Shown: piece after piece, positions 20,973 through 53,995 of the stretch | Position numbering within the stretch: position 1 is the stretch's first letter | How the letters are laid out: the number at the start of each line of letters is the position of its first letter | Assembly: GCA_018883245.1 (NCBI GenBank) | Contig: VEQL01000014.1 | Span: forward strand, 1-62,104 | DNA: 62,104 nt | Direction of reading: 5' to 3' | Source of the DNA: Chthoniobacterales bacterium | Lineage (GTDB): Bacteria; Verrucomicrobiota; Verrucomicrobiia; Chthoniobacterales; JACTMZ01 | Notes under the pieces: generated by a model | Database searches by the model: none | What the model was told of the DNA's origin: nothing | The model's input: the letters and a program-made list of their open reading frames with translations, nothing else | Program-made: the position numbers and the translations under genes

Positions 20973-21157
20973 GGCGCCGTGCCTTCGTGTTTGTGCACGT
21001 GGTCTTTCAGCCGCCGCACGCTTAGTTCGTGTTCCACCAGCGCGCCCAGCGCGCGGGCGTAGGATTCGCAGCAGTTGCGCGCGAGTTCAGCCTTGCGCCT
21101 CTCATACTCCCGGCGGGCTTTGTGCCGGCCGCCCTGCAGGATTTCCGCGCGTCTCAT
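20969..21157 (-). CDS. Small basic protein of the element (62 aa)
   Basis: A 62-residue protein very rich in Arg, Lys, His and Glu (MRRAEILQGGRHKARREYER then RKAELARNC), probably a single long helix or helical hairpin. Its stop overlaps the primase-like start as ATGA, and its start abuts the stop of the AlpA-like gene, so it fits the coupled chain and is probably real. No family recognised; small charged proteins in such positions can bind DNA or the primase. Confidence 0.6.
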   Translation of the reverse strand: MRRAEILQGGRHKARREYERRKAELARNCCESYARALGALVEHELSVRRLKDHVHKHEGTAP

Positions 21158-21456
21158 CAGTTCGCGCCTCCCAGGGTTTCAACCTGGCTGTGCAGGTAAT
21201 TCAGCAGGCTTTCCAGGTGAACGAGCCGTGCGCCTTTCGCAGCGCCAGGGCGCCGCAAGCAAACGGTTTTCACGTTCCCGCCTTCCAGCAGTTGCCACAT
21301 TTTGGAACGGGAAAGCCCAGTCCAAGGGCAGAGCGTGGAAGGCTTCGGAAGCCGGATGAATTCCGGCCGAAAGCCAGCCGGCAGTTGCGAGTTATCGGCA
21401 GCGCGGATTACTTCCACGGTGCCGCCGGTGTTGCTGTGTTTAGTTGTCACGGGCAT
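21157..21456 (-). CDS. AlpA-like HTH regulator/excisionase
   Basis: A 99-residue protein from the ATG at 21456 (an upstream TTG at 21477 would add 7 residues). The central segment WTGLSRSKMWQLLEGGNVKT followed by VCLRRPGAAKGARLVHLESL and LLNYL is the MerR-like winged HTH of AlpA/excisionase proteins: a helix-turn-helix beginning L-S-R-S, a beta wing with RRPG, and a final helix ending in LL. Such proteins activate integrase or act as directionality factors. The start codon sits inside a perfect inverted repeat (21448-21469), suggesting autoregulation. Confidence 0.75.
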   Translation of the reverse strand: MPVTTKHSNTGGTVEVIRAADNSQLPAGFRPEFIRLPKPSTLCPWTGLSRSKMWQLLEGGNVKTVCLRRPGAAKGARLVHLESLLNYLHSQVETLGGAN

Positions 21457-21469
21457 ATGATTGCCCGTG
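21448..21469. promoter_or_regulatory. Perfect inverted repeat over the AlpA-like start codon
   Basis: Arms CACGGGCA (21448-21455) and TGCCCGTG (21462-21469) with a 6-base spacer TATGAT. The start codon of the AlpA-like gene overlaps the left arm. A dimeric repressor bound here would block both transcription and translation, so it is a likely operator of the element's regulator. Confidence 0.6.
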
Positions 21470-21513
21470 CGTGTCAAAGCGACTATTTGCCGCGATTAGG
21501 TTTTGAAACTTTG

Positions 21514-22347: not shown

Positions 22348-23585
22348 GCTTTTTTCTTCGCCTTCCGTTTTGCTTTGCCCTTCGGGCTGGGAGCCGGCGC
22401 CCCGGGCACGGGGATAGATTCCACGGCCGCCCGCAGGGTTTCGAGTTCGTAATGCGTATAGCCTTCATGCACGCGGTCATCAGCATGCCCCGTTAGGGCC
22501 TTGCGTGTGTCTGCCGCTACGCCGGCATTTGCCAGCAGGGAAGTTGCCGTGTGCCGCAGGCTGTGAAATGACAGCGTGCTAACCGTGCGCCCCGTGCGGG
22601 CCTTGTTTTCGGCCGTGTCCTTCACTTCATCGCCGGCGCCGTGGCGAATCACCACACCCATAACGCCGGCGCGTTCCATGATTTTGCGGAAGATTTGCGA
22701 CAACCCCCGGCAGCCCCCGGTTTTACGTCCGTGCAGGTGGGGGAATATCGGCGCCTTGCCTATGCCGCGCGTTTGATTTTTCAGCCATGCAATGAAGGCA
22801 GGGTGCAGCGGGGTAGTTTGCTCCGCTTCGGTTTTCGTGGCAGCCGTCCGCAGCACACGGGCCGGCATATCAATCTGCCCCCAGGTGAGCGCGGCAATAT
22901 CCCCCAGCCGCAGGGCTGTAGTGAGTCCGCAGAGTATGGCGCCGTGCCAGTCCGTGCCCTTCGTGGCGTCTAGCAGGGCTTCAAGCTGTTCGTGCGTGAA
23001 AGGCTGCCGACGGGCCGTGGATTTCGGCACGGTGTCCCGCACGGGCTTAATGGCAGCGCAGGGATTTACCGTCACGTAGCCCAACTTGCGCGCCGCTTCA
23101 AACGGGGCGCCCAGGGTTTTCCGTATGGCAAGATTGATTGTGCTCGCGGCCAGCCCGCGCTGCTGCAGCGTGTCGCGATAGCGCAAGATTTCCTTGGGGG
23201 TAATGCTCGCCAGCGGGGCACCATCCCGCTTGCCCAGGAATTCGCGGAAGTCATCAATCGTCCCCCGGTATTTTTCAAACGTGCCGCCCTTCACCGTGGC
23301 CTTCGTGTTCGCCAGCCATTCGCCCAGCCAGCCGCCGGCCGTGTGGAAATTCAAAGGCTCGCCCGTTGTGCGCTCGTAAAGTTCAGCCGCTACGCGCCGG
23401 TAGTGCGCTTCCGTGCTGTGCCCCCGGGCCATGCGTTCAAACTCCATTGCCACGGCCAGGGCTTCGGCGCGGTTCTTTTTCTTCGTGCTCTTGAAAAATG
23501 CTGTGCCGTCTGCAGATCGGAACGCTGCATACCAAAACGGGGAAGATTTGCCCTCCGTGCGGTGGACTTTGTGAACGCTTGCCAT
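22344..23585 (-). CDS. int: Tyrosine recombinase (integrase) of the element
   Basis: A 413-residue phage-type integrase. The N-terminus (MASVHKVHRTEGKSSPFWYA, AAFRSADGTAFFKSTKKKNR) looks like the arm-binding/AP2-like domain; residues about 75-165 form the SAM-like core-binding domain; the catalytic domain follows. Visible catalytic residues are Arg in GLTTALRLGDIAALTW, the H-x-x-R box HSLRHTATSLL, the third His in ALTGHADDRVHEGYTHY and the nucleophile Tyr in that same stretch. The C-terminus is a Lys-rich tail (GKAKRKAKKKA). It lies 100 bp inside attR, away from the intact tRNA, and is first in the element's operon. Confidence 0.95.
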   Translation of the reverse strand: MASVHKVHRTEGKSSPFWYAAFRSADGTAFFKSTKKKNRAEALAVAMEFERMARGHSTEAHYRRVAAELYERTTGEPLNFHTAGGWLGEWLANTKATVKGGTFEKYRGTIDDFREFLGKRDGAPLASITPKEILRYRDTLQQRGLAASTINLAIRKTLGAPFEAARKLGYVTVNPCAAIKPVRDTVPKSTARRQPFTHEQLEALLDATKGTDWHGAILCGLTTALRLGDIAALTWGQIDMPARVLRTAATKTEAEQTTPLHPAFIAWLKNQTRGIGKAPIFPHLHGRKTGGCRGLSQIFRKIMERAGVMGVVIRHGAGDEVKDTAENKARTGRTVSTLSFHSLRHTATSLLANAGVAADTRKALTGHADDRVHEGYTHYELETLRAAVESIPVPGAPAPSPKGKAKRKAKKKA

Positions 23586-40902: not shown

Positions 40903-41202
40903 TCACAGCAACCAGACAGGCGTCTCCTCCGCCACGGGCGAGACCGAAGGCTCTTTCACCGCACGCACACGGACCGCGCGGCCCTGTGCAGGTGTGGCAC
41001 CTTCCGCCTGGATCCACGCCTGAATGCGAAGCGTGTGCTCGCCTGAAGGCTCCTGCGTGCCGGCCAGCCACGCGGATACATGCGGTTGGGCGATGCCGAG
41101 ATGCTTGGCAAGTTCGGTCACGCGCCCGTGCTTGGAACGGCAAAACTTTGCGAGATCGGCAATGAACGCGTCCATGAGGCGTCCGCTCCTTTTCGCTTTC
41201 AT
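40903..41202 (-). CDS. Small HTH (XRE-like) protein
   Basis: A 99-residue protein with a Cro/XRE-like helix-turn-helix in residues about 15-60: FIADLAKFCRSKHGRVTELA, KHLGIAQPHVSAWLAG, then a C-terminal Pro/Val-rich tail without domain features (RVRAVKEPSVSPVAEET). The spacing and the GxxQPHVSxWLxG pattern are good for DNA binding. It stands alone between gnd and the lut operon on the lut strand, 22 bp downstream of the lutC stop, so it may be read through from the lut operon or regulate it; neither is shown. Confidence 0.75.
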   Translation of the reverse strand: MKAKRSGRLMDAFIADLAKFCRSKHGRVTELAKHLGIAQPHVSAWLAGTQEPSGEHTLRIQAWIQAEGATPAQGRAVRVRAVKEPSVSPVAEETPVWLL

Positions 41203-41224: not shown

Positions 41225-41830
41225 TCAAATCAACAGGCACCCTTGGATGCCCGGGCCATGAACACCCTTGATAAGGATGCCCTCGACATCGGCGGTCTTC
41301 GAAGGTCCGGTGACCCAGACAATATTCGGATCGTCGGGCATGGCGGCGATCGCGTCGGCGATCGAACGGTGGATGCTGTCCTTGCGCAGCACCGCGATAT
41401 GCGTCCACGGCGCCAAAGCGGCAAGACGGTCCGGGGTGCAGTCGTCAGTCAAAATGATGGTTCCGGATTCCGCGATGCCTGCGGCTGCAGGGGTGATGGC
41501 GACATCGATTTCGTCCACGGCCGGGCGCTGGTATTCGGATGTCAGCGCGACGTCCGTCCCAAGCTGCGAGGCAATGGCGGACAATTCCGACGGGATGAAA
41601 ATCTTTCCGGGTTTTTGGCCGGAAATCCACGACACCAGTTCTCCGACCGAGGAGAAGCACAGCGTGCCGACGGCAGAAGCGCGGTCTTTGAAGAGCTTCA
41701 CGGTATCGGCCTCCGCCCCCATCCATTGCGCATCCGCAACACCGCGCGGGACGTCGGGGCGTGACTCGCGGTGCGGCAGCGGCGCCAAAGCACCCCGGAT
41801 GGCGGAGAAGATTTGCTCGCGGGCGCTCAT
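41225..41830 (-). CDS. lutC: LutC-like lactate utilisation protein (LUD domain)
   Basis: A 201-residue LUD-domain protein: IRGALAPLPHRESRPD at the N-terminus, then EIDVAITPAAAGIAESGTIIL and the Leu-rich WTHIAVLRKDSIHRSIADAI, ending with VTGPSKTADVEGILIKGVHG, the phosphate/substrate-binding motif GPSxTADIE characteristic of LutC/YkgG. With LutA and LutB it makes the iron-sulfur L-lactate dehydrogenase complex that oxidises lactate to pyruvate. The start overlaps the lutB stop (ATGA). Confidence 0.92.
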   Translation of the reverse strand: MSAREQIFSAIRGALAPLPHRESRPDVPRGVADAQWMGAEADTVKLFKDRASAVGTLCFSSVGELVSWISGQKPGKIFIPSELSAIASQLGTDVALTSEYQRPAVDEIDVAITPAAAGIAESGTIILTDDCTPDRLAALAPWTHIAVLRKDSIHRSIADAIAAMPDDPNIVWVTGPSKTADVEGILIKGVHGPGIQGCLLI

Positions 41831-43242
41831 TGTCCATTGCCTCCGTCAGGACGGCTGCGGGCTTGGCGCGATTTCATCCAAGACCGGAATTTTCCGCCGC
41901 GCCATTCCGGCAGCGTGCGCTTTTTCAACCACGAGCTGAGATAAGGCACGGGCATTTTATCGAGCGGAAGGTAGTCTTTCGCCACGCCGAAAGTCATGGC
42001 TGCGCGCCAGACGAGCGGATGGCTGCCGAGGATGGCGAAACCGGCCATGGGCGGCGTGCCCGGCGAAGGCACATGCTCTTTGTGGGCGCGGTCCCGAAGG
42101 CGCAGAAGCAGGTCGGGGATCGGAATATCGACCGGACAAACTTCGTTGCAAGCGCCGCAAAGGCTCGACGCCTTGGGCAAATCGGCGAGTTCCTTGAATT
42201 TGTCCCCGGCCAGAAGCGGGGAAAGGACGGCGCCGACCGGGCCGGGATACACGCTGCGGTAGGCATGACCGGATGCCTGGCGATAAACGGGACAGACATT
42301 CAGGCAGGCCCCGCAGCGGATGCAGCGGAGGATTTCCCTGCAATTCGAGGCAAGGACTTCGGTGCGACGGTTGTCGACGAAGATGACATGCATTTCCTCC
42401 GGCCCGGAAGGACGGTCTTTGCGCCGGGGACCATTGATGAACTCGGTGTAAACCGTGAGCTGCTGCCCGGTGGCGGAGCGACCGAGCAAATTGAGCAGAA
42501 CGGCGAGGTCCGCGTCGGACGGAACGACTTTCTCGATGCCCACGAGAGCGATATGAATTTTCGTCGGTGCGAGACAGAAGCGCGAGTTCCCTTCGTTGGT
42601 CACCAACACGAGGCGTCCGGATTCGGCCGAAACGAAATTCGCGCCCGTGATGCCCGCGCCGGCGGCGAGGTATTTCCCGCGCAAAAACTTGCGGGCGCGG
42701 CGCGTGATCGTTTCGGGATCGTCATTGTAGTCCCCCAATCCTTCCCGCTCGAAGCTCTTTGCGATATCCCCGCGGGTCTTGTGGATGATGGGGCGGACAA
42801 TATGACTGGGATGATCCCCGTCGATCTGCACGATGTATTCACCGAGGTCGCTCTCGATCGATTCGACACCTTGTTCGGCAAGGTAGTCGTTGAGATGGAT
42901 CTCCTCGGTGACCATGCTCTTGGATTTGACGACTTTGGTAATGCCGGCACTTTTGAGAATATCCCCGACCGCGCGCCGCGCGTCATCCGCCGTCACCGCG
43001 TAATGCACCTTGGCCCCTCGGGCAGACAGGCTTTCCTCGGCCTGCGCGAGATAACGGTCGAGGTGCTCGAGGGTATGCTGGCGGATCGAGCCCGCCAATT
43101 TGCGCAAAGAGTCCGCATCGGCGTAATCTTCGCCGAGCAACTGGTAGCGTTTGGAGGTGGTCGCCGCCGTGCTCTGGTGAACCGCGTTCCGGACCGTCGG
43201 AGCAAGCTCCGCTACGTAAGTGTCAATCGCCTGCCGTGCCAT
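41827..43242 (-). CDS. lutB: LutB-like iron-sulfur lactate oxidation protein
   Basis: A 471-residue protein of the LutB/LldF family. The N-terminal half is a LUD domain (SMVTEEIHLNDYLAEQGVES, GANFVSAESGRLVLVTNEGN, where the NEGN box is diagnostic). The C-terminal half carries two 4Fe-4S motifs: CIRCGACLNVCPVYRQASGH and CGACNEVCPVDIPIPD. Electrons from lactate oxidation presumably go to a quinone or another carrier. The start lies 20 bp inside lutA. The protein has the normal length. Confidence 0.93.
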   Translation of the reverse strand: MARQAIDTYVAELAPTVRNAVHQSTAATTSKRYQLLGEDYADADSLRKLAGSIRQHTLEHLDRYLAQAEESLSARGAKVHYAVTADDARRAVGDILKSAGITKVVKSKSMVTEEIHLNDYLAEQGVESIESDLGEYIVQIDGDHPSHIVRPIIHKTRGDIAKSFEREGLGDYNDDPETITRRARKFLRGKYLAAGAGITGANFVSAESGRLVLVTNEGNSRFCLAPTKIHIALVGIEKVVPSDADLAVLLNLLGRSATGQQLTVYTEFINGPRRKDRPSGPEEMHVIFVDNRRTEVLASNCREILRCIRCGACLNVCPVYRQASGHAYRSVYPGPVGAVLSPLLAGDKFKELADLPKASSLCGACNEVCPVDIPIPDLLLRLRDRAHKEHVPSPGTPPMAGFAILGSHPLVWRAAMTFGVAKDYLPLDKMPVPYLSSWLKKRTLPEWRGGKFRSWMKSRQARSRPDGGNGQ

Positions 43243-43996
43243 GATGTTTGTGCAGCGCGTCGCGCAGTATTTGGACGAAATGCAGCGTCTTGACCGGCCG
43301 TCCCTCGCGCTCGGCCAACCCTCCGAGGTGCATGAGGCAACTCATGTCGCCGGAGACGATGAAATCGGGGTGCGCGGCGCGGATGTTTTCCAACTTGAGT
43401 TCGCCCATGGCGGTGGAAACGTTGGGAAAGCTGACGGAAAATGTGCCACCGAAGCCGCAGCACTGCTCCCCTTCGCCGAACGGCACGATTTCGAGGCCTT
43501 TGATGGACTGCAAAAGTTGCAGGACGGCCGGACCGCTGGCCGTGCCGCGGGTGTGGCACGCGCGGTGAAAAGCAATCTTGGCGTTGAATTCACCCGGCCA
43601 CTCCTTGATGCCAAGGGCATTAACGAGGTAATCGCCCAGCTCCCACGTGCGGCCGCCGACTTGCTCGATTGCCGCGCGGTCTTTCTCGCCTTCGAATTCC
43701 AGCGTCGATCCATGGAACATCATGGCCGCACACGAACCTGAAGGGACGACTATCGGGTCGGTGCCGGCGAAAACGCCTGCAGTGTGGCGCATGACACTTC
43801 GTGCGGCGGGCCACTGGCCGCAGTTGAAAGCGGGCTGGCCGCAACACGTCTGGTTCTCGGGAAAATCGACCTCGCAGCCCGCGTGCTCAAGCACCTCGAC
43901 GGTTGCCTTGGCCACGTCATCGTAAAAGGCATCGCAGAGGCAGGTGGCCATCAATTGGACACGCTTTCCCTTGGGCCTGGCGGCTAGGTTGATCAT
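43223..43996 (-). CDS. lutA: LutA-like protein (two CCG domains)
   Basis: A 257-residue CCG-domain protein. Two cysteine-rich motifs are visible: ENQTCCGQPAFNCGQWPAAR and GEQCCGFGGTFSVSFP, each followed about 35-40 residues later by a lone or paired Cys (GSCAAMMFHGS; GDMSCLMHLGG). Such proteins bind [4Fe-4S] clusters of the heterodisulfide-reductase type and are the third component of the LutABC lactate dehydrogenase. It follows rhaB with a 4-bp overlap, which ties lactate oxidation directly to the sugar kinase transcript. Confidence 0.93.
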   Translation of the reverse strand: MINLAARPKGKRVQLMATCLCDAFYDDVAKATVEVLEHAGCEVDFPENQTCCGQPAFNCGQWPAARSVMRHTAGVFAGTDPIVVPSGSCAAMMFHGSTLEFEGEKDRAAIEQVGGRTWELGDYLVNALGIKEWPGEFNAKIAFHRACHTRGTASGPAVLQLLQSIKGLEIVPFGEGEQCCGFGGTFSVSFPNVSTAMGELKLENIRAAHPDFIVSGDMSCLMHLGGLAEREGRPVKTLHFVQILRDALHKHHGTAGD

Positions 43997-45462
43997 GAGG
44001 CAGAGAGGACTTTGTCGAACTTCGCCGCTTTATCGTCCCAAAGCGCGGTGTCGCGCGGCGTGAATTCACCGATTTCGAAAGATCTTCCGATCAAATCCCT
44101 CCCGTCGTCCAGCGAAGCGAGATCCCCGCAGGCGATCATCTGTGCGACGACATTGCCCAGCGCCGTGGCTTCAGACGGTCCCGCCAAAACACGCAGGCCG
44201 CCGGCATCGGCGGTCATCTGGTTGAGCAGCGCGTTGCGCGATCCCCCGCCGACGATATGCAGGGTGTCGGGAAAGTCGGGCATCCACTGTTTCATCGTGC
44301 GCAAGAGCAGACGATATTTCAGCGCCAAACTCTCGAAAATAATGCGCGTCGTTTCCGCGCGGCTGCCCGGCGCATTCTGCCCGGATTTGGAAAGCCACGC
44401 GGCGATTGCAGCGGGCATGTCGCACGGACGGGAAAACTCGGGAGCGTCCGGGTCGATGAAGCCATCTGTCTTCGTGCCCGCAGCCTTGGCCACGATGGAC
44501 TCGTATTCGAGCTTCTCGCCCCCGCGCTCCCAATTGCGCTTGCATTCCTGCAGAAGCCACATGCCGGCGACGTTCTTGAGGAAACGTGTTGTGCCACCCA
44601 GCCCCTGCTCGTTGGAAAACCTCGCCGCACACGTCGCTGCGGTCACGATAGGATCCGGAAGTTCGCGCCCGATCAGCGACCAAGTTCCGGAACTGATGAA
44701 CAAAGGGTTCTTCCCGCGGGCCGGAACCCCGGCCACGGCGGAGGCGGTGTCATGGCTGCCGCACAGGACCACCTTGATCTTGCCGGGCTTTCCATCATCG
44801 CCGCGCAGATTGCCCGCAATGGTGCAGGGTTCGCTCACGGGCGGGAGAAGGGCAGCCGGAATACCAAGTTTTTCCGCAAGTTCTTTGTCCCACTCCGCGG
44901 CACCGGCCTTGAGCAAACCCGAGGTGCTGGCGATGGTGCGCTCGACGGTTTGCTCGCCGCCGAGCCAGTAAGTCAGCAGATCCGGAACAAAAGCGAGACG
45001 CGTTGCCGCTTTCACCGCCGCCGGGTGCTGCCGCGTCTCGGCGAACAACTGGTAAATCGAGTTGAAGAACATCGGCTGGATGCCCGTGCGACGGTAAAGT
45101 TCGTCCGCATTCACCAAGGCATCCACCGCCTCCATGGCCCCGTCGGTGCGTGAATCGCGATACATCCACGGCATTCCCAAGAGCCTTCCACCCGCATCGA
45201 GCAAGCCGTAATCGACGCCCCACGTGTCCACCGAGACGGAGACAACATCGTTGCCGTGCGCCGCCACGGCTTTCGCGATTCCCTTGCGGATGTCCGCGTA
45301 AATCCGGAGCAGATCCCAGTGCCAACCGTCGGGCAAAAGCATGCCGCCGGTCGGAAACCGCGCCATCTCCTCCAGCATGATTTTGCGGCCGTCAAAAATT
45401 CCGGCCATCACACGTCCGCTGTCCGCGCCGAGATCGGCTGCCAGGTAAACACGTTTTTTCAT
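43993..45462 (-). CDS. rhaB: Rhamnulokinase (FGGY family)
   Basis: A 489-residue FGGY sugar kinase. The N-terminal ATPase fold starts YLAADLGADSGRVMAGIFDG, with VSVSVDTWGVDYGLLDAGGR (catalytic Asp and the GxDY motif) at about 75 and the C-terminal signature SGTWSLIGRELPD, IVGGGSRNALLNQMTADAGG. The DLGADSGR and WGVDYGLLD forms are those of rhamnulokinases. It makes L-rhamnulose-1-phosphate, the substrate for the class II aldolase in the BMC operon; fuculose is an alternative. Operon with deoR (3 bp upstream) and lutABC. Confidence 0.9.
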   Translation of the reverse strand: MKKRVYLAADLGADSGRVMAGIFDGRKIMLEEMARFPTGGMLLPDGWHWDLLRIYADIRKGIAKAVAAHGNDVVSVSVDTWGVDYGLLDAGGRLLGMPWMYRDSRTDGAMEAVDALVNADELYRRTGIQPMFFNSIYQLFAETRQHPAAVKAATRLAFVPDLLTYWLGGEQTVERTIASTSGLLKAGAAEWDKELAEKLGIPAALLPPVSEPCTIAGNLRGDDGKPGKIKVVLCGSHDTASAVAGVPARGKNPLFISSGTWSLIGRELPDPIVTAATCAARFSNEQGLGGTTRFLKNVAGMWLLQECKRNWERGGEKLEYESIVAKAAGTKTDGFIDPDAPEFSRPCDMPAAIAAWLSKSGQNAPGSRAETTRIIFESLALKYRLLLRTMKQWMPDFPDTLHIVGGGSRNALLNQMTADAGGLRVLAGPSEATALGNVVAQMIACGDLASLDDGRDLIGRSFEIGEFTPRDTALWDDKAAKFDKVLSAS

Positions 45463-45465
45463 CGG

Positions 45466-46233
45466 TCAATCTTCATTTGCTGCCTGCACGCGCAGCCCCT
45501 GGGCCTTGACCACTTCGGAAACCTGCGGGGGCAAGGGGCGGTCGGTGATCCATAAATCAATTTCACCCGGGCGCGCGAAAAAGTAGCTGGATGCCAAGCC
45601 GACTTTGGAGGAATCGGCCAGCAGGATGACTTCGTCGGACCGCTCCATCACCGCATGCTTGAGGCGGGCATGCACCTCGCCCGCGTCGCTCATGCCACGC
45701 TGGGGATCCACGCCGCGGCAGGAAAGAAACGCGGCATCGAGGTGATAGATGTCCAAAGCTTTCTCGGACGCCCATCCGCCGGTGGAGAGCGAACTGGCCC
45801 TGAGACTTCCACCGAGCAAAACGCAGTCGATGTCGCTTTTTTCCGCAAGCGCCATCGCGATCTGCAGGCCGTTGGTTACCACGGTGAGCGGTTGCTCGGG
45901 CAACATGAAAGCCAGCTGGAGCACCGTGGTGCTGGCGTCGAAGTAAACCGTCTGCCCCACTTTGATCCGCGCCATGGCGGCGGCGGCGATGGCTTGCTTG
46001 GCACCGATATTCTGCTCCGCGCGATCCTGAACGGGCGATTCGCGCCGGTTGGCGTCCAATCGAACGGCTCCTCCATGCGATCGCATGAGCATTCCCTCGG
46101 CTGCGAGCTTCTCGAAATCCCTCCGCACCGTCTCTTCGGTGACCCCCAGCGCTTGGGCCACCTGGGAAGTCCGGATGCTTCCTTGGGCGTTCACCCTTTC
46201 AAGCAGCCAGCGATGACGTTCTACAGCGAGCAT
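45466..46233 (-). CDS. DeoR-family transcriptional regulator
   Basis: 255 residues from the ATG at 46233 (MLAVERHRWLLERVNAQGSI), the standard DeoR beginning; an upstream GTG at 46269 is less likely. HTH: SQVAQALGVTEETVRRDFEK, then EGMLMRSHGGAVRLD. The C-terminal sugar-phosphate isomerase-like sensor has the typical YFDASTTVLQLA, VVTNGLQIAMAL, LLGGSLR and DEVILLADSSKVG blocks. It probably senses a sugar phosphate such as rhamnulose-1-phosphate or DHAP and controls both its own operon and the divergent BMC operon through the repeats at 46257-46289. Confidence 0.93.
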   Translation of the reverse strand: MLAVERHRWLLERVNAQGSIRTSQVAQALGVTEETVRRDFEKLAAEGMLMRSHGGAVRLDANRRESPVQDRAEQNIGAKQAIAAAAMARIKVGQTVYFDASTTVLQLAFMLPEQPLTVVTNGLQIAMALAEKSDIDCVLLGGSLRASSLSTGGWASEKALDIYHLDAAFLSCRGVDPQRGMSDAGEVHARLKHAVMERSDEVILLADSSKVGLASSYFFARPGEIDLWITDRPLPPQVSEVVKAQGLRVQAANED

Positions 46234-46256
46234 GGGGAAAAATGAGGCCAGTTTGT

Positions 46257-46289
46257 GGATAACTCCCACTATTATCCGACTCCATTATC
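46257..46289. promoter_or_regulatory. Putative DeoR operator in the divergent rhaB-lut / BMC promoter region
   Basis: GGATAA (46257-46262) and TTATCC (46272-46277) form a 6-bp inverted repeat with a 9-base spacer; a further ATTATC lies at 46284-46289, 13 bp after the ATTATC at 46271. The whole intergenic stretch 46234-46388 is AT-rich, in contrast to its flanks, and separates two divergent operons. It is the natural binding place for the DeoR protein. Promoter boxes within it cannot be fixed by eye. Confidence 0.55.
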
Positions 46290-46388
46290 AAACAAGAAAA
46301 AAAACAGTTGCGCAGGCAGAAACAAAGACATACACAACAAATCCTACTTTACACCGACAATAATTTTCCTTCTTCGAGCTAAACGTTA

Positions 46389-46826
46389 ATGCCACCTCAA
46401 ATTGCTTCCGAAAAGACAGTTAGCCGCCGGTTCGGCAAGTTGCCAACCATTGATCCCGAGGATATTCCCAACCGAGTTCGAGACATCGCCATGATGCGCG
46501 GCCTGGGTTATTCCTTCCGCGAGATCGCCCAGCAGTTCCACGTCACACCCCAAGCCATCTCGCTGATGCTTTCGCGGCACCGCCGCTCCCTCAAGTTGCT
46601 CAACGGCGCCACGGAACTTACAAATCTCTCCGCCCGCGCGGCCAACGCCCTCGGGCGGCACGGAATTTCCGGGCGAAGCGAGGCGCGCAGCAAAAACGTT
46701 CTGGAACTGCTCAGCAACGAGCGGAATTGCGGACGCAAAACGCTCGACGAAATCGAGCGCTGGCTATCCGAGCCCGGGGAGCAACCCGCTCACCGCATGA
46801 ACGGCAATGTTTGCGGCATGAGCTGA
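46389..46826 (+). CDS. HTH protein with RNA polymerase alpha-CTD-like tail, first in the BMC operon
   Basis: A 145-residue protein in two parts. Residues about 25-68 are an HTH of the sigma-70 region 4/DUF-like kind: VRDIAMMRGLGYSFREIAQQ then FHVTPQAISLMLSRH. Residues about 75-130 match the RNA polymerase alpha C-terminal domain: LTNLSARAANALGRHGISGR and a later NCGRKTLDEIERWL, which correspond to the L-S-x-R-x-x-N-x-L and N-(F/C)-G-x-K-(S/T)-L-x-E-I motifs. A protein that combines its own DNA-binding unit with an alpha-CTD-like module could recruit or mimic polymerase at the BMC promoter. It is the first gene after the divergent regulatory region. No characterised homologue is recalled. Confidence 0.75.
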   Translation: MPPQIASEKTVSRRFGKLPTIDPEDIPNRVRDIAMMRGLGYSFREIAQQFHVTPQAISLMLSRHRRSLKLLNGATELTNLSARAANALGRHGISGRSEARSKNVLELLSNERNCGRKTLDEIERWLSEPGEQPAHRMNGNVCGMS

Positions 46827-46889: not shown

Positions 46890-47555
46890 GTGTCTCATCC
46901 CTCACGTCAGACAGTCGAATCGCTGGTCCGGGAAATTCTGCTCAAGCAATTTGCCAACGCTCCCACGGGAGGCGCTGCCCCCACGCTCTTGGTCAACAGC
47001 TCCGCACGCCACATGCACATCTCCCCGGAGAACCTCCAGGTTCTGTTCGGCCCCGGCGCGGAACTCACGGTCCACAAATGGCTCTACCAGGAGGGCCAGT
47101 TCGCCTCCGAGCAAACCGTCACGCTCATCGGCCCGCGCAAGCGAATCATCCCCAACCTTCGGATTCTCGGCCCTTGCCGCAACCTCACGCAGGTCGAGCT
47201 TGCCCTCACAGATGCCATCCAACTCGGCATCGACATACCTGTGCGGATGTCCGGCGACATTGACGGCACGCCCGGCGCCTACATCATGGGCCCCAAAGGC
47301 ATGCTCGAGATGAAAAACGGCGTCATACGCGCCGCGCGGCACGTCCACATGTCCCCCGAAGACGCCAAATTCTACGGCGTGAAGCACCTCGACAAGATCG
47401 GCCTTCGCGTCACCGCTCCCGGCTGCACCACCGTTTTCGACGACTTGATCGTCCGCGTGGACCCCACCTTCAAACTGGAGGTCCATATTGACACGGACGA
47501 AGCCAACGCCTGTGATCTTGACAGGGCAAACAAGGTCGAACTAATTTCACGTTGA
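46890..47555 (+). CDS. pduL: Phosphotransacylase PduL
   Basis: The PduL family is shown by two zinc-binding blocks: NSSARHMHISPENLQVLFGP and RAARHVHMSPEDAKFYGVKH (H-x-H sites), between which comes VTLIGPRKRIIPNLRILGPC. The enzyme exchanges CoA and phosphate, here most likely lactyl-CoA to lactyl-phosphate, recycling CoA inside the shell. The start is uncertain: GTG at 46890 gives an N-terminus SHPSRQTVESLVREILLKQF, an amphipathic helix that acts as encapsulation peptide; a TTG at 46863 would add nine residues. No clear ribosome binding site precedes either. Confidence 0.93.
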   Translation: MSHPSRQTVESLVREILLKQFANAPTGGAAPTLLVNSSARHMHISPENLQVLFGPGAELTVHKWLYQEGQFASEQTVTLIGPRKRIIPNLRILGPCRNLTQVELALTDAIQLGIDIPVRMSGDIDGTPGAYIMGPKGMLEMKNGVIRAARHVHMSPEDAKFYGVKHLDKIGLRVTAPGCTTVFDDLIVRVDPTFKLEVHIDTDEANACDLDRANKVELISR

Positions 47556-47586: not shown

Positions 47587-47856
47587 ATGAACCAAGCAAT
47601 CGGACTCATTGAAACCCGAGGTTACGCCGGACTGGTCGAGGCAAGTGATGCCATGGTCAAAGCCGCGAACGTCGAACTCATCAAATCTATCCCCATCGGC
47701 GGCGCCATGATCACCACGATCGTGCGCGGCGATGTGGGCAGCGTCAAAGCCGCCGTCGAGGCCGGCAAGGAAACCGCCACCCGCGTGGGCAACCTCGTGG
47801 CCGGCCACGTTATTCCCCGCCCCGCGCCGGAACTTCTCGCGTTCTTCACCGCCTAA
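47587..47856 (+). CDS. BMC-H hexameric shell protein 1
   Basis: An 89-residue single BMC domain: [40 protein letters not shown] (the pore-lining loop), [16 protein letters not shown], then [16 protein letters not shown]. Hexamers of such proteins tile the facets of the microcompartment. The pore loop sequence IPIGGAM differs from those of the other two BMC-H here. Preceded by pduL (31 bp) and followed by the second shell gene (23 bp). Confidence 0.96.
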
Positions 47857-47879
47857 TCCAAACCAACCACACCAAAATT

Positions 47880-48173
47880 ATGTCCGGACAAGCACTCGGA
47901 ATGATCGAAACAAAGGGCCTCGTTTCCCAGTTTGAAGCAACTGACGCGATGCTCAAAGCCGCCAATGTCGAACTCGTCGGCTGGGAAAAAGTCGGCTCGG
48001 GACACGTAGCCACGTTTATTCGCGGCGAAGTCGCGGCCGTCAAAGCTGCCGTCGAAGCCGGCGCCACAGCCGCCGCCTCCATCGGCGAAGTGATCGCGGT
48101 CCACGTCATCCCCCGCCCGCACGGGGACCTCGCCAAGTTGGGCAAATTCGTTGCCGGCAAAGCCGCGAAATAA
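47880..48173 (+). CDS. BMC-H hexameric shell protein 2
   Basis: A 97-residue BMC domain: [40 protein letters not shown] (pore loop with GSGH), [36 protein letters not shown], plus a C-terminal Lys/Ala tail (KFVAGKAAK) longer than in paralogue 1. The tail could interact with cargo or cytosol-facing surfaces. Together with 1 and 3 it gives the shell a set of hexamers with different pores. Confidence 0.96.
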
Positions 48174-48180
48174 TCCGCCC

Positions 48181-49383
48181 ATGCCCGAAACCCGCCAGGT
48201 CTTGGTCGCCAACCTCGGCAGCACCTCGTTCAAGTTCCGCTTGTATGAGATGCCTAACGAGCGTTTGCTGGCCAAAGGCGGATTCGAGCGCCTCGGCTCC
48301 GACCGCGCCGCATGGAAAATCACCGTCGGCGACGGACCGGAAAAAAGCGGCCAGGGCGACGTGGTCACCCACGAGGATGCGATCCGCCTGACCGACAAGG
48401 AACTCGGCGGGCTTGCTCATCTCGCGGCCGTCGGCTTCAAACCTGTCATGGCCCGCGGAATCTCGGGCACGCAGTTCATGGACGGGCGCGTCCTTGCAGC
48501 GATGGAAGACATCGCCTCGCTGCTTCCCGCGCACAATCCGCCCTACATCCACGGCGTGCGCCTTTTCAACAAGTTGTATCCTTCCCTGCCATGCATCGGC
48601 ACTTTCGAGACGGCATTTTACGACCGGGTTCCGGAGCACAATCGCCGCTTCCCCGTGCCGCTGGAGTGGAAAAACAAATACGGCGTCGCCCGCTACGGCT
48701 TCCACGGCGCCAGCCACCGCTACATAAGCGAGCGCACGGCCGAGCTGCGAGGCTCGGATAAAACGCGGCTTGTCTCCTGCCACCTCGGCGGAAGTTCGTC
48801 CATGGCCGCGGTCAAAAACGGCGTCGCCATCGACTCGACTTGGGGAATGACCGCGCAAAGCGGCCTGCCGCAGAACAACCGTGCCGGCGATTTCGATTGC
48901 TTCGCCATGATCTATCTCGCCCGCGAGTGCGGCCTCGGCTGGGATGCCGTGGAGAAAGCCCTCGCCTCGGACTCCGGCTTGAAAGGTATGTCCGGACTGC
49001 AGACCGGCGACATGCGCGACTTGAGAGAGGCGGCCAACGCGGGCAACAAGGACGCCCAAACTGCCATCGCCGTCTTTGTCGCCGCCATCCGCAAATATCT
49101 CGGACAATTTTTTGTCGAACTCGACGGACTCGACGTCCTCGTTTTCACCGCGGGCATCGGCGAGAACAACCCCGACCTGCGCGCCGAAATCTGTGCAAAC
49201 CTCGACTGCCTCGGACTCAAACTCGACGCGGCCGCCAACGCTGCCTGCCGCGCGACGGAGGCCGTCATCAGCGCACCGGATTCCAAAGTCGAAGTGCGTG
49301 TCATTCCCACCAACGAGGAAATCGTGATCGCCCGCAACGCCTGGCGCCTCCTGCAGGAACATCCACAACAGCAAGCCGCCTGA
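48181..49383 (+). CDS. ackA: Acetate kinase family enzyme of the BMC operon
   Basis: 400 residues from the ATG at 48181 (MPETRQVLVANLGSTSFKFR). The ASKHA motifs are VLVANLGSTSFKF (phosphate 1), RYGFHGASHRYI (acetate kinase signature), LVSCHLGGSSSMAAVKNGVA and FTAGIGENNPDLRAEI. Normal acetate kinases have N-x-G-S-S-S; here Ser is replaced by Thr in GSTSFK. In this setting the substrate is probably lactyl-phosphate (or acetyl/propionyl-phosphate) with ATP formed. Its position between shell genes, 7 bp after BMC-H 2, is typical of the PVM-type locus. No encapsulation peptide is visible at either end. Confidence 0.93.
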   Translation: MPETRQVLVANLGSTSFKFRLYEMPNERLLAKGGFERLGSDRAAWKITVGDGPEKSGQGDVVTHEDAIRLTDKELGGLAHLAAVGFKPVMARGISGTQFMDGRVLAAMEDIASLLPAHNPPYIHGVRLFNKLYPSLPCIGTFETAFYDRVPEHNRRFPVPLEWKNKYGVARYGFHGASHRYISERTAELRGSDKTRLVSCHLGGSSSMAAVKNGVAIDSTWGMTAQSGLPQNNRAGDFDCFAMIYLARECGLGWDAVEKALASDSGLKGMSGLQTGDMRDLREAANAGNKDAQTAIAVFVAAIRKYLGQFFVELDGLDVLVFTAGIGENNPDLRAEICANLDCLGLKLDAAANAACRATEAVISAPDSKVEVRVIPTNEEIVIARNAWRLLQEHPQQQAA

Positions 49384-49416
49384 ATTTCTCCAACAAACCT
49401 CAAACCAACAAACCAT

Positions 49417-49695
49417 ATGCAACAAGCCCTAGGAATGATCGAAACGCGCGGCCTCGTCGCCCTTGTCGAGGCGACCGACGCCATGCTCAAATCCGCCAAC
49501 GTCGAGCTGGCCGGTCCCATGACCCAAGTCGGCAACGCCATGGTCACCGTCTGCGTGACCGGCGATGTCGCCGCGGTCAAAGCAGCCACCGAAGCCGGAC
49601 GCGCCGCGGCCCAGTCCCTCGGCGAAATCGTCTCCGTGAGCGTCATTGCCCGACCGAATCCCGAGACCTCGGTGATCCTGCCAAAGGCCAAATAA
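49417..49695 (+). CDS. BMC-H hexameric shell protein 3
   Basis: A 92-residue BMC domain: ALGMIETRGLVALVEATDAM, KSANVELAGPMTQVGNAMVT (pore loop with GNAM), VCVTGDVAAVKAAT, SVSVIARPNPETSVILPKAK. The Arg usually found in IVRGDV is replaced by Thr (VTGDV), which may change packing or permeability. It follows ackA by 33 bp and precedes the first BMC-P by 4 bp. Confidence 0.96.
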   Translation: MQQALGMIETRGLVALVEATDAMLKSANVELAGPMTQVGNAMVTVCVTGDVAAVKAATEAGRAAAQSLGEIVSVSVIARPNPETSVILPKAK

Positions 49696-49699
49696 CGCC

Positions 49700-50008
49700 A
49701 TGATCCTGGCGCAGGTCGAAGGCAGCATCGTCGCGACGAAGAAGAACCCCAAAATGACGGGGGCGAAATTCCTCTTCGTCCGCCCGCTCGTGGTGGACAA
49801 GCCGGATGCCGTGGAATTGCGCCCAGGCAGTTCGACCCTCGTCGCCGTGGATTCACTCGGCGCCGGCGAAGGCGAAGTCGTCCTCGTAGTGCAGGGCAGC
49901 TCCGCCCGTTTGGCCGGTCCCGACAAAGACTCGCCGGTCGATGCTGTCGTCGTCGGCATCGTGGACACGGTCGATGTCGCCAAACGCAAAATCTACCAAG
50001 CCAAGTAA
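49700..50008 (+). CDS. BMC-P pentameric vertex protein 1 (EutN/CcmL)
   Basis: A 102-residue OB-fold vertex protein with the canonical sequence: MILAQVEGSIVATKKNPKMT, GAKFLFVRPLVV, AVDSLGAGEGEVVLVVQGSS, ARLAGPDKDSPVDAVVVGIV. Pentamers cap the twelve corners of the shell. This copy is the most standard of the three BMC-P proteins here. Confidence 0.96.
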   Translation: MILAQVEGSIVATKKNPKMTGAKFLFVRPLVVDKPDAVELRPGSSTLVAVDSLGAGEGEVVLVVQGSSARLAGPDKDSPVDAVVVGIVDTVDVAKRKIYQAK

Positions 50009-50014
50009 AGCCCA

Positions 50015-51484
50015 ATGAGCGCCATCGACGAACAAATCGTGACCAAAGTGGTGAGCGAGGTGCTCAGCCGCCTCCGCCAACACCAGTCGGCCCCTGCATC
50101 AGCCGTCGCATCCTCCGGATCCCGCGCGTCCGGGGCATCAACCTCCGGATCCTACGGCGTTTACGAGGACATGAACGCGGCTTGCGACGCCGCACAGCAC
50201 TCGTTCGAAAAGCTCCGCGCTGCCGGTGTCTCAGCGCGCAAAAAAGCCATCGCCGTCATCCGCCGCCTCTGCGTCGAGAAAGCCGACGAATGGGGCCGCA
50301 TTGAATTCGAGGAGACCAAGATCGGACGCCTCGAGCACAAGATCGAAAAACTCAAAATCTGCGGCGACCTCGTGCCCGGCGTGGAAATGCTCGAGCGGAT
50401 GGCTTTCAGCGGCGACTTCGGGCTCACCGTCATCGACTTCGCACCGTGGGGAGTCATTGGTGCGGTCACGCCGTCGACCCATAGTGTCCCCACCCTCACC
50501 GGCAACGCCATCAACATGATCGCGGCCGGAAACACCGTTGTCTTCAACACCCACCCGGGTGCCGCGAAGTGCGCTGCGATCGCGATCAAGGCCTACAACG
50601 AGGCAATTGCCAGAGAAACCGGCATCACCGACATGCTTTGCACGGTGACCAAGCCCACCCTCGAGACCTTCCAGCAGATGTGCGCCAACCCGCACGTCAA
50701 ACTCCTCTGCGTCACCGGCGGCCCCGCCGTCGTCGCCGCGGCCATGAAGACCGGCAAGCGCGCCGTCTGCGCCGGGCCCGGCAACCCGCCGGTCGTCGTC
50801 GATGAAACGGCCGACCTTGCCCGCGCCGCCGCCTCGATCATCCAGGGCGCCGCCTATGACAACAATCTCCTCTGCATCGGCGAGAAGGAAGTGTTCGTGG
50901 TGGATTCCGTGGCGGACAAACTCATGGAGGAACTCCGCAAAGCCGGCGCCGTCCAGCTGGATGCGCGGCAAATCGAAGCTCTTGCGGACAAAGCATTCGT
51001 TTTCCCGCAGGGCAAAGGCGCCGGATGCCCGCACCCCGTGGTGAACCGCGACCTCGTCGGCCGCGACGCCGCCGTCTTGGCCAAAGCCATCGGCCTCGAT
51101 GTCCCCGCCTCGACCAAGCTCCTTTTCGGCGAGACCAAGGCGGACAACATCTTCGTCGATGAAGAGCAAATGATGCCCTTTATTCCCGTGGTTCGCGTGA
51201 AAAACGTGGACGAGGCCATCAAGGAGGCAGTCAAGGCCGAGCACGGCTACAAGCACACGGCCATCATGCACTCGCGCAATATCGACGCGCTCACGAAAAT
51301 GGCGCAAGTCGCCGACACCACGCTTTTCATCAAGAACGGACCCTGCATGACCGGCCTCGGGCTCGGCGGCGAAGGCTTCCTCAGCTTCAGCATCGCCACG
51401 CCGACCGGCGAAGGCGTCACCACGCCCATGACCTTCACCCGCTCCCGCCGCTGCGTGATGGTCGAAAACCTCAACCTTTATTGA
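50015..51484 (+). CDS. CoA-acylating aldehyde dehydrogenase (PduP/EutE-like)
   Basis: A 489-residue ALDH. The N-terminus MSAIDEQIVTKVVSEVLSRL is an amphipathic encapsulation helix, followed by a Ser/Ala/Gly linker to about residue 45. The catalytic Cys is in the block AAYDNNLLCIGEKEVFVVDS (about 288), with a NAD-site region GPAVVAAAMKTGKRAVCAGP and the C-terminal VKNVDEAIKEAVKAEHGYKH. It would convert L-lactaldehyde (or propionaldehyde/acetaldehyde) plus CoA to the acyl-CoA with NAD reduction. It is separated from the first BMC-P by 6 bp and its stop overlaps the second BMC-P start. Confidence 0.94.
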   Translation: MSAIDEQIVTKVVSEVLSRLRQHQSAPASAVASSGSRASGASTSGSYGVYEDMNAACDAAQHSFEKLRAAGVSARKKAIAVIRRLCVEKADEWGRIEFEETKIGRLEHKIEKLKICGDLVPGVEMLERMAFSGDFGLTVIDFAPWGVIGAVTPSTHSVPTLTGNAINMIAAGNTVVFNTHPGAAKCAAIAIKAYNEAIARETGITDMLCTVTKPTLETFQQMCANPHVKLLCVTGGPAVVAAAMKTGKRAVCAGPGNPPVVVDETADLARAAASIIQGAAYDNNLLCIGEKEVFVVDSVADKLMEELRKAGAVQLDARQIEALADKAFVFPQGKGAGCPHPVVNRDLVGRDAAVLAKAIGLDVPASTKLLFGETKADNIFVDEEQMMPFIPVVRVKNVDEAIKEAVKAEHGYKHTAIMHSRNIDALTKMAQVADTTLFIKNGPCMTGLGLGGEGFLSFSIATPTGEGVTTPMTFTRSRRCVMVENLNLY

Positions 51485-51747
51485 TGCGCACAGCCGTCAT
51501 CCAGGGCCACGTCACCTCGACCGTGAAGCATCCCAGCTTCCACGGCACTCGCTTGCTCGTCGCCGTGCCCGAATCAGGTGATGTTGCGCCGCAGATCGTC
51601 CTCGACCAACTCGGCGCCGCCATCGGACAGCGTGTCATCATCTCCAGCGACGGCGCCGAAGCGCGCAAAATGGTCAATGACGAACTCAGCCCCGCGCGCT
51701 GGAACGTCACCGGCATCATCGATCCGGAGGGAGCCCTCGCCGTATGA
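51484..51747 (+). CDS. BMC-P pentameric vertex protein 2
   Basis: An 87-residue EutN/CcmL-fold protein: MRTAVIQGHVTSTVKHPSFH, GTRLLVAVPESGDVAPQIVL, DQLGAAIGQRVIISSDG, NVTGIIDPEGALAV. The chosen ATG at 51484 shares a base with the aldehyde dehydrogenase stop (TGATG). It lacks the GAGxGExV(L/I) stretch in full (GAAIGQRVI) and is a divergent paralogue, as usual for PVM-type loci with three BMC-P genes. Confidence 0.93.
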   Translation: MRTAVIQGHVTSTVKHPSFHGTRLLVAVPESGDVAPQIVLDQLGAAIGQRVIISSDGAEARKMVNDELSPARWNVTGIIDPEGALAV

Positions 51748-52028
51748 GACTCGGCACCGTCATCGGCCGCGTCACACTCTCCGTGCGCAACCCCGCCTAC
51801 AACGGCGAGCGGCTGCTGCTCACGCTGCCGTGGCGCCGTGAAACGCTGAAAGGCGAACAGAAATTCGATCCGTCGATCGTCGTTTACGACCGCCTCGGCG
51901 CCGATGTCGGACAGACCGTCGCCATCAGCGAAGGCCGCGAAGCCGCCTGCCCTTTTCCCAAACCGACGCCCGTGGACGCCTATTGCGCCGCGCTCGTCGA
52001 TGAAATGTTCATCCAACCGCAATCATGA
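51744..52028 (+). CDS. BMC-P pentameric vertex protein 3
   Basis: A 94-residue EutN/CcmL-fold protein: MRLGTVIGRVTLSVRNPAYN, GERLLLTLPW, VVYDRLGADVGQTVAISEG and a C-terminal AYCAALVDEMFIQPQS. An insertion around residues 35-45 (RRETLKGEQKFD) distinguishes it from the other two. Both ends overlap neighbours by 4 bp. Confidence 0.93.
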   Translation: MRLGTVIGRVTLSVRNPAYNGERLLLTLPWRRETLKGEQKFDPSIVVYDRLGADVGQTVAISEGREAACPFPKPTPVDAYCAALVDEMFIQPQS

Positions 52029-53068
52029 AAGTGTTCGCCCACAAAGACGCTGCCGATTTCGTCAGCACCGGAGCCAAGGAATTCCGCCACAACCGCGAGG
52101 TTCTCCTCACACCCGGAGCGCGCGATGCGTTCTCCGAGGCCGGCATCAAAATCGTCTTCCAGGAAGGGGCTGCGGGCGAAAGCTCGGCCGTCACCGCCCT
52201 GACCACATCCGGGGACGCCGCGTTGTTCAATTCGCCTCTCGCGGAAAAGCTCAAAAAGGAAATCTGCGAGATCGGGCGGCGGATTTGGATCCGAGAATAT
52301 TCTGACGGCAACGGCGGCAACATTTCAGCACGGCTGACGGACAACCGCTTCATTTGCACGCCCACCGGCGTGAGCAAGGGTTTCATGACGCCCGACATGC
52401 TCTGCATGGTGGATGGCGAAGGGCGCCAGGTGGCCGGAACATGGAAGCGTTCCAGCGAGATCACAACACACCTTGCGATCTACAACACCACCCCAGAAGC
52501 CGCATCCGTGTGCCACGCGCATCCTTGCCATGCCGGAGCATTTGCCATCAAGGGCATGCAACCCCCGCCGCGGCTGATCCCCGAGCTGGAGGTGTTTGTC
52601 GGCACCGTCGCCCTTGCCGAATACAAGACGCCGGGCTCGGCCGAGATGGCCGAGTCCATCAAACCCCTCGCCCCGCAGCACCAGTCGATCATCATGGGCA
52701 ACCATGGCGTCATCACCTGGGGCAAGTCGGTGGAGGATGCCTATTTCAAAATGGAAATCACCGACGCCTACTGCCGCACGGTGATTCTGGCGCAGTCCAT
52801 CCCCGGCGGAGCGTCCATCCCGTGTGAAAAAATCGGCGAATTGCTCGACATCAAAAAAGGCCTCGGACTTCCCGACCCGCGTTACGGACTCAAACCCGCC
52901 GAACTTTGCGAGGTCGATCCGTGGACCCAAATGTGCGGGCAGCGCGGTTGCGCCACACCCGTCACGCCTTTCACCCCGCTCGAGGCACCTTCCTCTGCAC
53001 CGGCATCCGCAGAAATCGAAGCCCTCGTGCAAAGAATCACCGACGAAATCGTCGCCAACCTGAAATAA
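52025..53068 (+). CDS. Class II aldolase (rhamnulose/fuculose-1-phosphate) with C-terminal encapsulation peptide
   Basis: 347 residues, longer than standalone class II aldolases (about 215-275). Residues 1-70 are an added N-terminal domain; the aldolase core has the metal-binding pattern DGNGGNISARL, CVCHAHP-like VCHAHPCHAGAFAI (His pair), the catalytic Glu in LIPELEVFVGTVAL and the third His in GNHGVITWGKSVEDA. After a linker of Pro, Ala and Ser, the C-terminus SAEIEALVQRITDEIVANLK is an amphipathic helix that should target the enzyme to the shell interior. The products DHAP and L-lactaldehyde are inferred from the rhaB neighbour. Confidence 0.9.
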   Translation: MKVFAHKDAADFVSTGAKEFRHNREVLLTPGARDAFSEAGIKIVFQEGAAGESSAVTALTTSGDAALFNSPLAEKLKKEICEIGRRIWIREYSDGNGGNISARLTDNRFICTPTGVSKGFMTPDMLCMVDGEGRQVAGTWKRSSEITTHLAIYNTTPEAASVCHAHPCHAGAFAIKGMQPPPRLIPELEVFVGTVALAEYKTPGSAEMAESIKPLAPQHQSIIMGNHGVITWGKSVEDAYFKMEITDAYCRTVILAQSIPGGASIPCEKIGELLDIKKGLGLPDPRYGLKPAELCEVDPWTQMCGQRGCATPVTPFTPLEAPSSAPASAEIEALVQRITDEIVANLK

Positions 53069-53071
53069 ATC

Positions 53072-53995
53072 ATGAAAGTAGCCATCATCGGCGGCGGAGG
53101 CCGCGTCGGCAGTTGCGCAGCCTTTGCCCTGCAATGCTCGGGACTCGTCAAAGACCTCATCATCCTCGACGCCAACCAGGCTGCGGCCGAAGGCGAAGCC
53201 CTCGACCTCCTGCATGGAGCGGCCTTCTGCGCGGACCAGAACATTTACGCCGGCACCTACGCTGACTGCGCCCAAGCGGACCTCGTCTGCATCACGGCGG
53301 GACTTCGCCGCAAACCGGACGAGTCGCGACTCGACCTCATCAACCGGAACGTCGGGCTTTTCAACGGCATCCTCGACAGCCTGAAGCAGGCCGGGCTGAA
53401 AAAGAGCGCGATCATCTTCGTCGTTTCCAATCCGGTGGACATTCTCACCCAGCTCGCGGTGGAGCGCCTCGGCCTCCCGTGGCAACAGGTCCTCGGGCTC
53501 GGCACCATGCTCGACAGCTCGCGTTTCTGCTCGCTCATTGCTTCGGAACTCAAACTCCCCGCCACGCAGGTGCGTGCCATGATCCTCGGCGAACACGGCG
53601 ACAGCATGCTGCCCGTGTGGTCGTCCGCCACAGTGGACGGCTTCCCGCTGTTGAAGTTCCCCGGTGTCACGCCAACGTTCCAATCGAAAGTGTTCGAGCG
53701 CACGCAGAAGAGCGGGGCCGAAGTCATTTCGCGCAAAGGCGGCGCCGGTTGGGCTGTCGGAGTGACGATCAAGGAAGTAATCGACTGCATCGCCCTCGAC
53801 CGCCAACGCGTTCTTCCCGTCTCCAGCCAGATTCAGGGCTCCTACGGCATCCGCGGCATCAGCTTGAGCGTGCCCACAGTCGTCGGCCGTGCCGGCGTCG
53901 TGAAGCAACTCGAAATCGAACTCTGGCCGAAAGAGATGCAGGCGCTTCAGGCCTCCGCCCAAGCGCTCAAGGCGACCCGCGCAAAGATCAAATAG
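53072..53995 (+). CDS. Lactate/malate dehydrogenase family enzyme of the BMC operon
   Basis: A 307-residue LDH/MDH: Rossmann motif VAIIGGGGRVGSCAAFALQ, VSNPVDILTQLA, catalytic pair Asp in GTMLDSSRFCSLIA and His in ILGEHGDSMLPVWS. The substrate-discriminating residue before KP in ITAGLRRKPDESRLDL is Arg, as in malate dehydrogenases (LDHs have Gln there). It is the last gene of the BMC operon and overlaps the convergent galK end by 8 bp. In such loci it may recycle NAD. The acceptor substrate (oxaloacetate, pyruvate or another 2-oxoacid) is unknown. Confidence 0.88.
   Translation: MKVAIIGGGGRVGSCAAFALQCSGLVKDLIILDANQAAAEGEALDLLHGAAFCADQNIYAGTYADCAQADLVCITAGLRRKPDESRLDLINRNVGLFNGILDSLKQAGLKKSAIIFVVSNPVDILTQLAVERLGLPWQQVLGLGTMLDSSRFCSLIASELKLPATQVRAMILGEHGDSMLPVWSSATVDGFPLLKFPGVTPTFQSKVFERTQKSGAEVISRKGGAGWAVGVTIKEVIDCIALDRQRVLPVSSQIQGSYGIRGISLSVPTVVGRAGVVKQLEIELWPKEMQALQASAQALKATRAKIK

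Follow-up and report, generated by a model that had tools for sequence, protein, structure and literature searches.

A probable small accessory regulator: a genus-restricted helix-turn-helix–alpha-CTD protein at the head of a microcompartment operon

The first plus-strand gene of a bacterial microcompartment (BMC) operon from a Chthoniobacterales bacterium (Verrucomicrobiota; contig VEQL01000014.1 of assembly GCA_018883245.1, analysed here as one stretch of 62,104 nucleotides, the window) encodes a small protein in which a helix-turn-helix (HTH) precedes a segment resembling the C-terminal domain of the RNA polymerase alpha subunit (alpha-CTD). The original prediction saw in this arrangement a BMC regulator that docks on DNA through its HTH and offers the alpha-CTD to polymerase. 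This raises two questions: is the gene a dedicated microcompartment controller, and could its alpha-CTD recruit polymerase at all? The operon is of the PVM type, the fucose/rhamnose type of BMC, for which only a DeoR-family regulator has been described (PMC4207490). The open-access literature yielded no HTH-alphaCTD regulator at all and hence, as had been supposed, no characterised BMC regulator of this design.

The locus carries the gene set of a PVM-type BMC, namely class II aldolase, PduL, aldehyde dehydrogenase, AckA, an LDH-type dehydrogenase, shell genes and a DeoR gene (Table 1). The predicted placement as first operon gene next to a divergent regulatory region holds, with the divergent DeoR gene on one side and pduL, starting 63 nt further, on the other. 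The region between the divergent genes contains an A8 tract (46297-46304) followed by TTGCGC (46308-46313). Hereby, an A7-A8 tract immediately upstream of a TTGC hexamer forms a block common to the three BMC copies of the genus and is seen only in these orthologues. Neither a consensus promoter (-35/-10) nor a terminator was found between 46270 and 46388. Elsewhere in the window, a small YdaS/Cro-like HTH gene (40903-41202, minus strand; PF15943, E=2e-5, below the cut-off) adjoins lutC, and in genome G006 a divergent HTH-alphaCTD copy lies at the corresponding lutC end. A tRNA gene (17636-17708) is followed by minus-strand ORFs across 18517-23585, the last of which (22344-23585) looks integrase-like by eye, marking a candidate tRNA-integrated element.

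Table 1. Coordinates of the features discussed; positions refer to the window unless a locus is given.
Feature	Position	Strand	Evidence
HTH-alphaCTD protein gene, 145 aa	46389..46826	+	ATG-start ORF; PF03118 above cut-off; purifying selection
HTH domain, residues 28-67	46470..46589	+	AF2 model; Sigma70_r4_2; GerE/NarL/sigma4-like fold
Predicted recognition helix PQAISLMLSR, residues 54-63	46548..46577	+	Family alignment, column conservation, AF2 helix
Linker helix, residues 65-79	46581..46625	+	AF2 model
Alpha-CTD module, residues 76-128	46614..46772	+	PF03118; alignment to E. coli RpoA
Divergent intergenic region	46270..46388	.	Alignment of three BMC copies of the genus
DeoR-family sugar regulator, divergent	45466..46269	-	PF00455 E=1.6e-44, PF08220
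FGGY sugar kinase, rhamnulokinase-like	43993..45462	-	PF00370/PF02782; syntenic in G002, G004, G006, G007
LutABC-like lactate utilisation genes	41225..43996	-	PF02589, PF02754
PduL phosphotransacylase, next operon gene	46890..47555	+	PF06130 E=1e-69; NF011652
Rest of PVM BMC operon: BMC-H shell, AckA, EutN-type shell, aldehyde dehydrogenase, class II aldolase, lactate/malate dehydrogenase	47587..53995	+	
TAGTC-N6-GACTA sites	L031:3441, 9326, 12065; L033:1046, 3616, 9529; L036:2856, 3317		
TAGTC-N6-GACTA sites (continued)	L055:1334, 9826, 12518; L056:5445		

The C-terminal module matches PF03118 (RNA_pol_A_CTD) on residues 76-128 with E=6e-7 and 29.5 bits, above the curated cut-off of 23.8, and all 23 aligned family members match the profile at E<=0.1, some of them below the cut-off. 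The best PDB sequence matches of the window protein are likewise alpha-CTD chains (phmmer; 3gfk_B, E=6e-4). For the HTH half the best profile is Sigma70_r4_2 (E=3e-4), whose 20.7 bits stay below the cut-off of 25.7; it matches 21 of the 23 members, with a best value of 9.6e-8. The GerE profile gave a weak match in three members only (best E 0.07), the window member not being listed, and sigma70 region 2 found no match in the window protein. With region 4 below the cut-off and region 2 absent, the protein does not belong to the sigma70 family. Nor, on profile, is it a LuxR/FixJ (GerE) HTH regulator, although the fold is similar. It is no RpoA either, having 145 residues, an N-terminal HTH and no alpha-NTD, and a separate rpoA lies at G000:C21. 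A sensor or ligand domain is absent.

An AlphaFold2 model calculated from 20 family members (mean pLDDT 77.7, pTM 0.46; relative domain orientation uncertain) shows a tri-helical HTH (residues 28-38, 43-50, 54-63) and an alpha-CTD of four helices (82-90, 96-101, 104-109, 116-127). In VIA-align, residues 69-129 match the Streptomyces alpha-CTD 7vpd_S over 57 residues (middling Z of 6.1, rmsd 2.1, 32% identity), and the HTH resembles GerE/NarL/LuxR proteins and sigma region 4 (3n97_D, equally middling Z of 6.0, rmsd 1.4); a Foldseek search with the whole model gave no significant match and no E below 0.27. The fusion of HTH and alpha-CTD, originally seen by eye, is thus borne out both by a significant profile match and by a model that displays the helices of either domain and matches known folds, if with modest Z values. 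Within the family the recognition helix is near-invariant and the N- and C-terminal tails vary. For the HTH, dN/dS amounts to 0.03-0.35 and for the CTD to 0.08-0.27, while constraint on the N-terminus is relaxed; both DNA-binding domains are under strong purifying selection.

The alpha-CTD of RNA polymerase contacts the minor groove of UP elements through R265, N268, N294 and K298 (PMC5101437; PMC11434276). In the window protein R83, N86, N113, G115, K117, T118 and E121 take the places of E. coli R265, N268, N294, G296, K298, S299 and E302. According to an alignment with E. coli RpoA and RpoA of the genus and order, the R265 equivalent is present in all 23 members, that of N268 in 22, and those of N294, G296, K298 and E302 in all 22 members covering these positions, with S299 replaced by Thr. 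The family therefore possesses the DNA-binding (265) determinant. Seven of the eight DNA-contact columns are among the 18 of 53 columns conserved at >=95% (p=0.0013), a conservation which is partly due to the fold and therefore counts as support rather than proof. A different picture emerges for the sigma4-contact (D259/E261) and activator-contact (286/287/317) determinants of RpoA. Here, the window protein has L77/N79 at the former (in the family Leu, and mostly Gly, Asn or His) and V104, L105 and a gap at the latter, which are lost or variable across the family. The missing 261 and 287 residues concern the polymerase function, not membership of the fold family.

With the DNA-contact residues retained and the sigma4 and activator contacts replaced or variable, indirect evidence disfavours the idea of a surface that the fused alpha-CTD would present to polymerase or activators. 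In its full form, this idea makes the protein a local activator, with the HTH on an operator and the alpha-CTD recruiting polymerase by sigma4 or activator contact. LuxR/GerE-type HTH proteins are often activators, the alpha-CTD fold is retained and a position in sugar operons would fit such a role. However, the alpha-CTD is the polymerase's own arm, and a free copy without these contacts would recruit nothing, so that we regard recruitment as unlikely.

To place the protein, we compared it with other occurrences of the alpha-CTD. The family shares with the polymerase domain the sequence family (PF03118, above the cut-off), the four-helix fold and all DNA-contact residues, but lacks the alpha-NTD, is detached from polymerase and does not keep the sigma and activator contacts. 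It reads NCGxKT where RpoA of its own genus reads NFGKKS, and NCGxKT is common to some non-RpoA alpha-CTD proteins. In a tree of 57 columns with long branches the family alpha-CTD forms its own clade (support 98/98). A recent origin from the rpoA of the genus was rejected, since a grouping of the CTD with RpoA alone was disfavoured (AU p=0.013, again on only 57 columns); joining the BMC copies and the rhamnose copies in a single clade gave p=0.34, which speaks neither for nor against it. As in LuxR/GerE/NarL-type regulators, the HTH fold has a fourth helix, whereas the family has no receiver or ligand domain and carries the alpha-CTD at its C-terminus.

A class-wide survey returned extra PF03118 matches in several genomes, several of them being one or more alpha-CTDs followed by sigma70 region 4, both over the cut-offs. 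These verrucomicrobial proteins (L150, L151, L155, L157 and L158) combine alpha-CTD and sigma4/HTH-type domains in one non-RNAP protein. They differ in being 205-470 aa long, with one or two alpha-CTDs first and a true sigma4 helix (TRERVRQI), and belong to other families of the class. L131 from a viral contig (179 aa, 2542-3081) has the same HTH-then-alphaCTD order, NCGKKT and a sigma4-like HTH, its matches lying below the Pfam cut-offs. Small stand-alone alpha-CTD proteins are found in the viral L132-L134 (137 aa) and L130 (103 aa), and L130-L134 are unrelated to the window family outside the CTD. These small alpha-CTD genes on IMG/VR contigs (L130:192-503, L131:2542-3081, L132:2788-3201) are possibly phage tools for host transcription. 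PglW of BREX type 2 also carries an RNAP alpha-CTD-like domain outside polymerase, together with wHTHs (PMC12839542), but is a kinase of 1400-1600 aa from a defence system; two PglW-like kinase proteins with an alpha-CTD, L152 and L159, were encountered in other Verrucomicrobiota. An alpha-CTD outside RpoA is hence not unique to the window family, and fusions with sigma4-type domains exist elsewhere. The novelty of the window family lies in its minimal HTH-first form, its near-invariant recognition helix and its multiplication through the sugar operons of one genus.

These relatives bear on a further explanation, in which the protein imitates the upstream reader of the holoenzyme, laying a sigma4-like HTH and an alpha-CTD over the -35 and UP elements and thereby blocking the promoter or handing it over. 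Sigma70 region 4 is indeed the best HTH match across the family, the sigma4 structure 3n97 ranks among the top fold matches, and true alpha-CTD and sigma4 fusions over both cut-offs occur in other Verrucomicrobiota, with a weaker one on a viral contig. Compared to the verrucomicrobial fusions, however, the domain order is reversed and the recognition helix (PQA.S.ML.R) is unlike TRERVRQI; moreover, the HTH of the window protein stays under the sigma4 cut-off and the BMC operon shows no consensus -35/-10. Such a decoy seems distinctly improbable to us.

The family proved to be restricted to a single genus of Chthoniobacterales. Among 213 genomes from 45 genera of the order it occurs in 10 of the 11 genomes of the window's genus (the eleventh is 65% complete; G009 is an incomplete genome) and in none of the other 202. 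Beyond the window's genome, 388 sampled genomes of the phylum gave nothing but RpoA-like matches, and a search of 84,980 species genomes with patterns seeded on the alignment of the family retrieved only Chthoniobacterales/Verrucomicrobia MAGs, whose contigs are those of the same genus. About 26 intact or near-intact copies (the aligned copies and three further open ones) were counted, with up to about seven per genome, and at least four decayed fragments; these numbers are approximate, every genome being a MAG or a draft. One decayed copy, in the window's own genome (L049, G000:C6:108573-108734), retains the alpha-CTD part only, and the neighbouring reading frame resembles, by eye, a Gfo/Idh-type oxidoreductase. 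In the search for mobile carriage the window protein had no plasmid match and no relevant phage match; an apparent 'phage' match, MT839913, is an ordinary rpoA contig instead.

With this distribution at hand, the link to microcompartments can be judged. Only three of the approximately 26 copies lie at BMC loci: those of G000 and G004, and that of G007, where the assignment relies on synteny and contig ends. No other genome of the genus has PduL, the remaining eight of 11 giving no PduL match. G002 and G006 have the same DeoR-kinase-lut neighbourhood without a BMC, and there the HTH-alphaCTD gene comes after rhaD; the contig of G006 continues further and shows it between rhaD and rhaI. Other copies accompany genes for GH3 beta-glucosidase, GH65 phosphorylase with HAD hydrolase, GH16, galactokinase, CstA, 2-hydroxyacid dehydrogenase and others, so that the carbohydrate contexts include rhamnose and galactose operons. 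Many copies overlap or abut the stop of the preceding gene (gaps 0, -1, -4, -8), and DeoR, AraC, GntR, LacI or NarL-type regulators lie near copies in many loci, a raw co-occurrence.

Conversely, seven genomes of the order outside the genus contain PduL relatives but none contains the family, and the DNA upstream of pduL, where read in other genera, holds no HTH-alphaCTD gene. The gene is thus no conserved component of PVM BMC loci across genera, and the suggestion that other Verrucomicrobiota BMC loci might hold it at the same place did not survive the comparison with the other BMC-bearing genera of the order. As only three copies lie at BMC loci, the gene is mostly found far from them, the very outcome that the original prediction had named as its refutation. 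Its leading position in the BMC operons of G000, G004 and probably G007 would speak for a BMC-specific regulator, but given the BMC-free neighbourhoods in G002 and G006 and the BMC-bearing genera without the gene we consider this scarcely credible. As a general rule a BMC-specific role is refuted and the association is incidental; a local role is possible. The spread over many sugar-use operons points to an accessory regulator rather than a dedicated BMC controller.

We searched the DNA upstream of non-orthologous family loci for a shared operator. The EM motif scores (widths 12 and 20) equalled those of control intergenic sets; another width-20 run scored higher, its top sites being mostly BMC and rhamnose orthologues. 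Should the conserved recognition helix mean that a single site is read, this site is not present in obvious form at the promoters of the family's own operons. An inverted repeat, TAGTC-N6-GACTA (core CTATAGTCCGRARTGACTAG), was found at 12 sites in four genomes of the genus (three per genome). Every one of them lies in the intergenic DNA of a GH3 polysaccharide cluster, and the 11 genomes have none elsewhere. It was rejected as the family operator, all 12 sites being tied to GH3 clusters while G006 and G003 hold several other paralogues without sites there. The NarL-type response regulator in these clusters accounts better for the repeat, which is probably its operator.

The lack of a common operator, along with several decayed copies indicating birth and death, might also suggest a protein with a general DNA-bridging or helix-hairpin-helix role in place of a transcription factor, or else a gene that spreads passively. 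The strong purifying selection acting on the two DNA-binding surfaces, the placement within catabolic operons with overlapping starts and the fact that neither a transposase nor an integrase caught the eye next to the copies inspected speak against this, and we hold it to be very doubtful.

Considering these data together, we give about even chances to a sensorless two-module DNA-binding accessory regulator, which would act beside a ligand-sensing regulator and tune promoter access via upstream A-tracts. The domain architecture, the family, its genomic contexts, the conserved DNA-contact residues and the purifying selection are the parts of this account that the data show. In the proposed mechanism, the HTH would bind the major groove and the detached alpha-CTD would read the adjacent A/T-rich minor groove. 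The family, which is confined to one genus and has copies in many carbohydrate operons, would provide operon-encoded accessory autoregulators, accompanied by DeoR at the BMC locus and elsewhere by AraC, GntR, LacI or a NarL-type response regulator. Because the protein has no ligand or sensor domain, its concentration would be the only input, which would depend on expression of the operon and, in many cases, on translational coupling. Most likely, it would occupy upstream A-tract DNA that the polymerase's own alpha-CTD would otherwise use; at the BMC operon, the A7-A8/TTGC block (46297-46313) is a place where the alpha-CTD could bind. The effect might be repression, by covering upstream DNA, or activation. 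DNA binding, autoregulation and competition with RNA polymerase are, like the sign of regulation, proposed here from sequence. An extension to a genus-specific network, in which near-identical sensorless regulators share one DNA site, read by a common recognition helix and a polymerase-derived minor-groove module, and each operon reports its own activity by adding another copy of the factor to a pool whose level sets a common regulon, strikes us as quite improbable.

In conclusion, we see in the HTH-alphaCTD protein a probable small accessory regulator of gene expression and not a dedicated microcompartment controller, which corrects the reading of its gene as that of a microcompartment regulator. 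The DNA-reading arm of RNA polymerase would hereby have been reused as a detachable module in a compact regulator, multiplied across the sugar operons of one genus. If the paralogues do have one target site, the family would serve as a natural experiment on regulation governed solely by how many copies there are and how strongly they are expressed, without ligand sensing.
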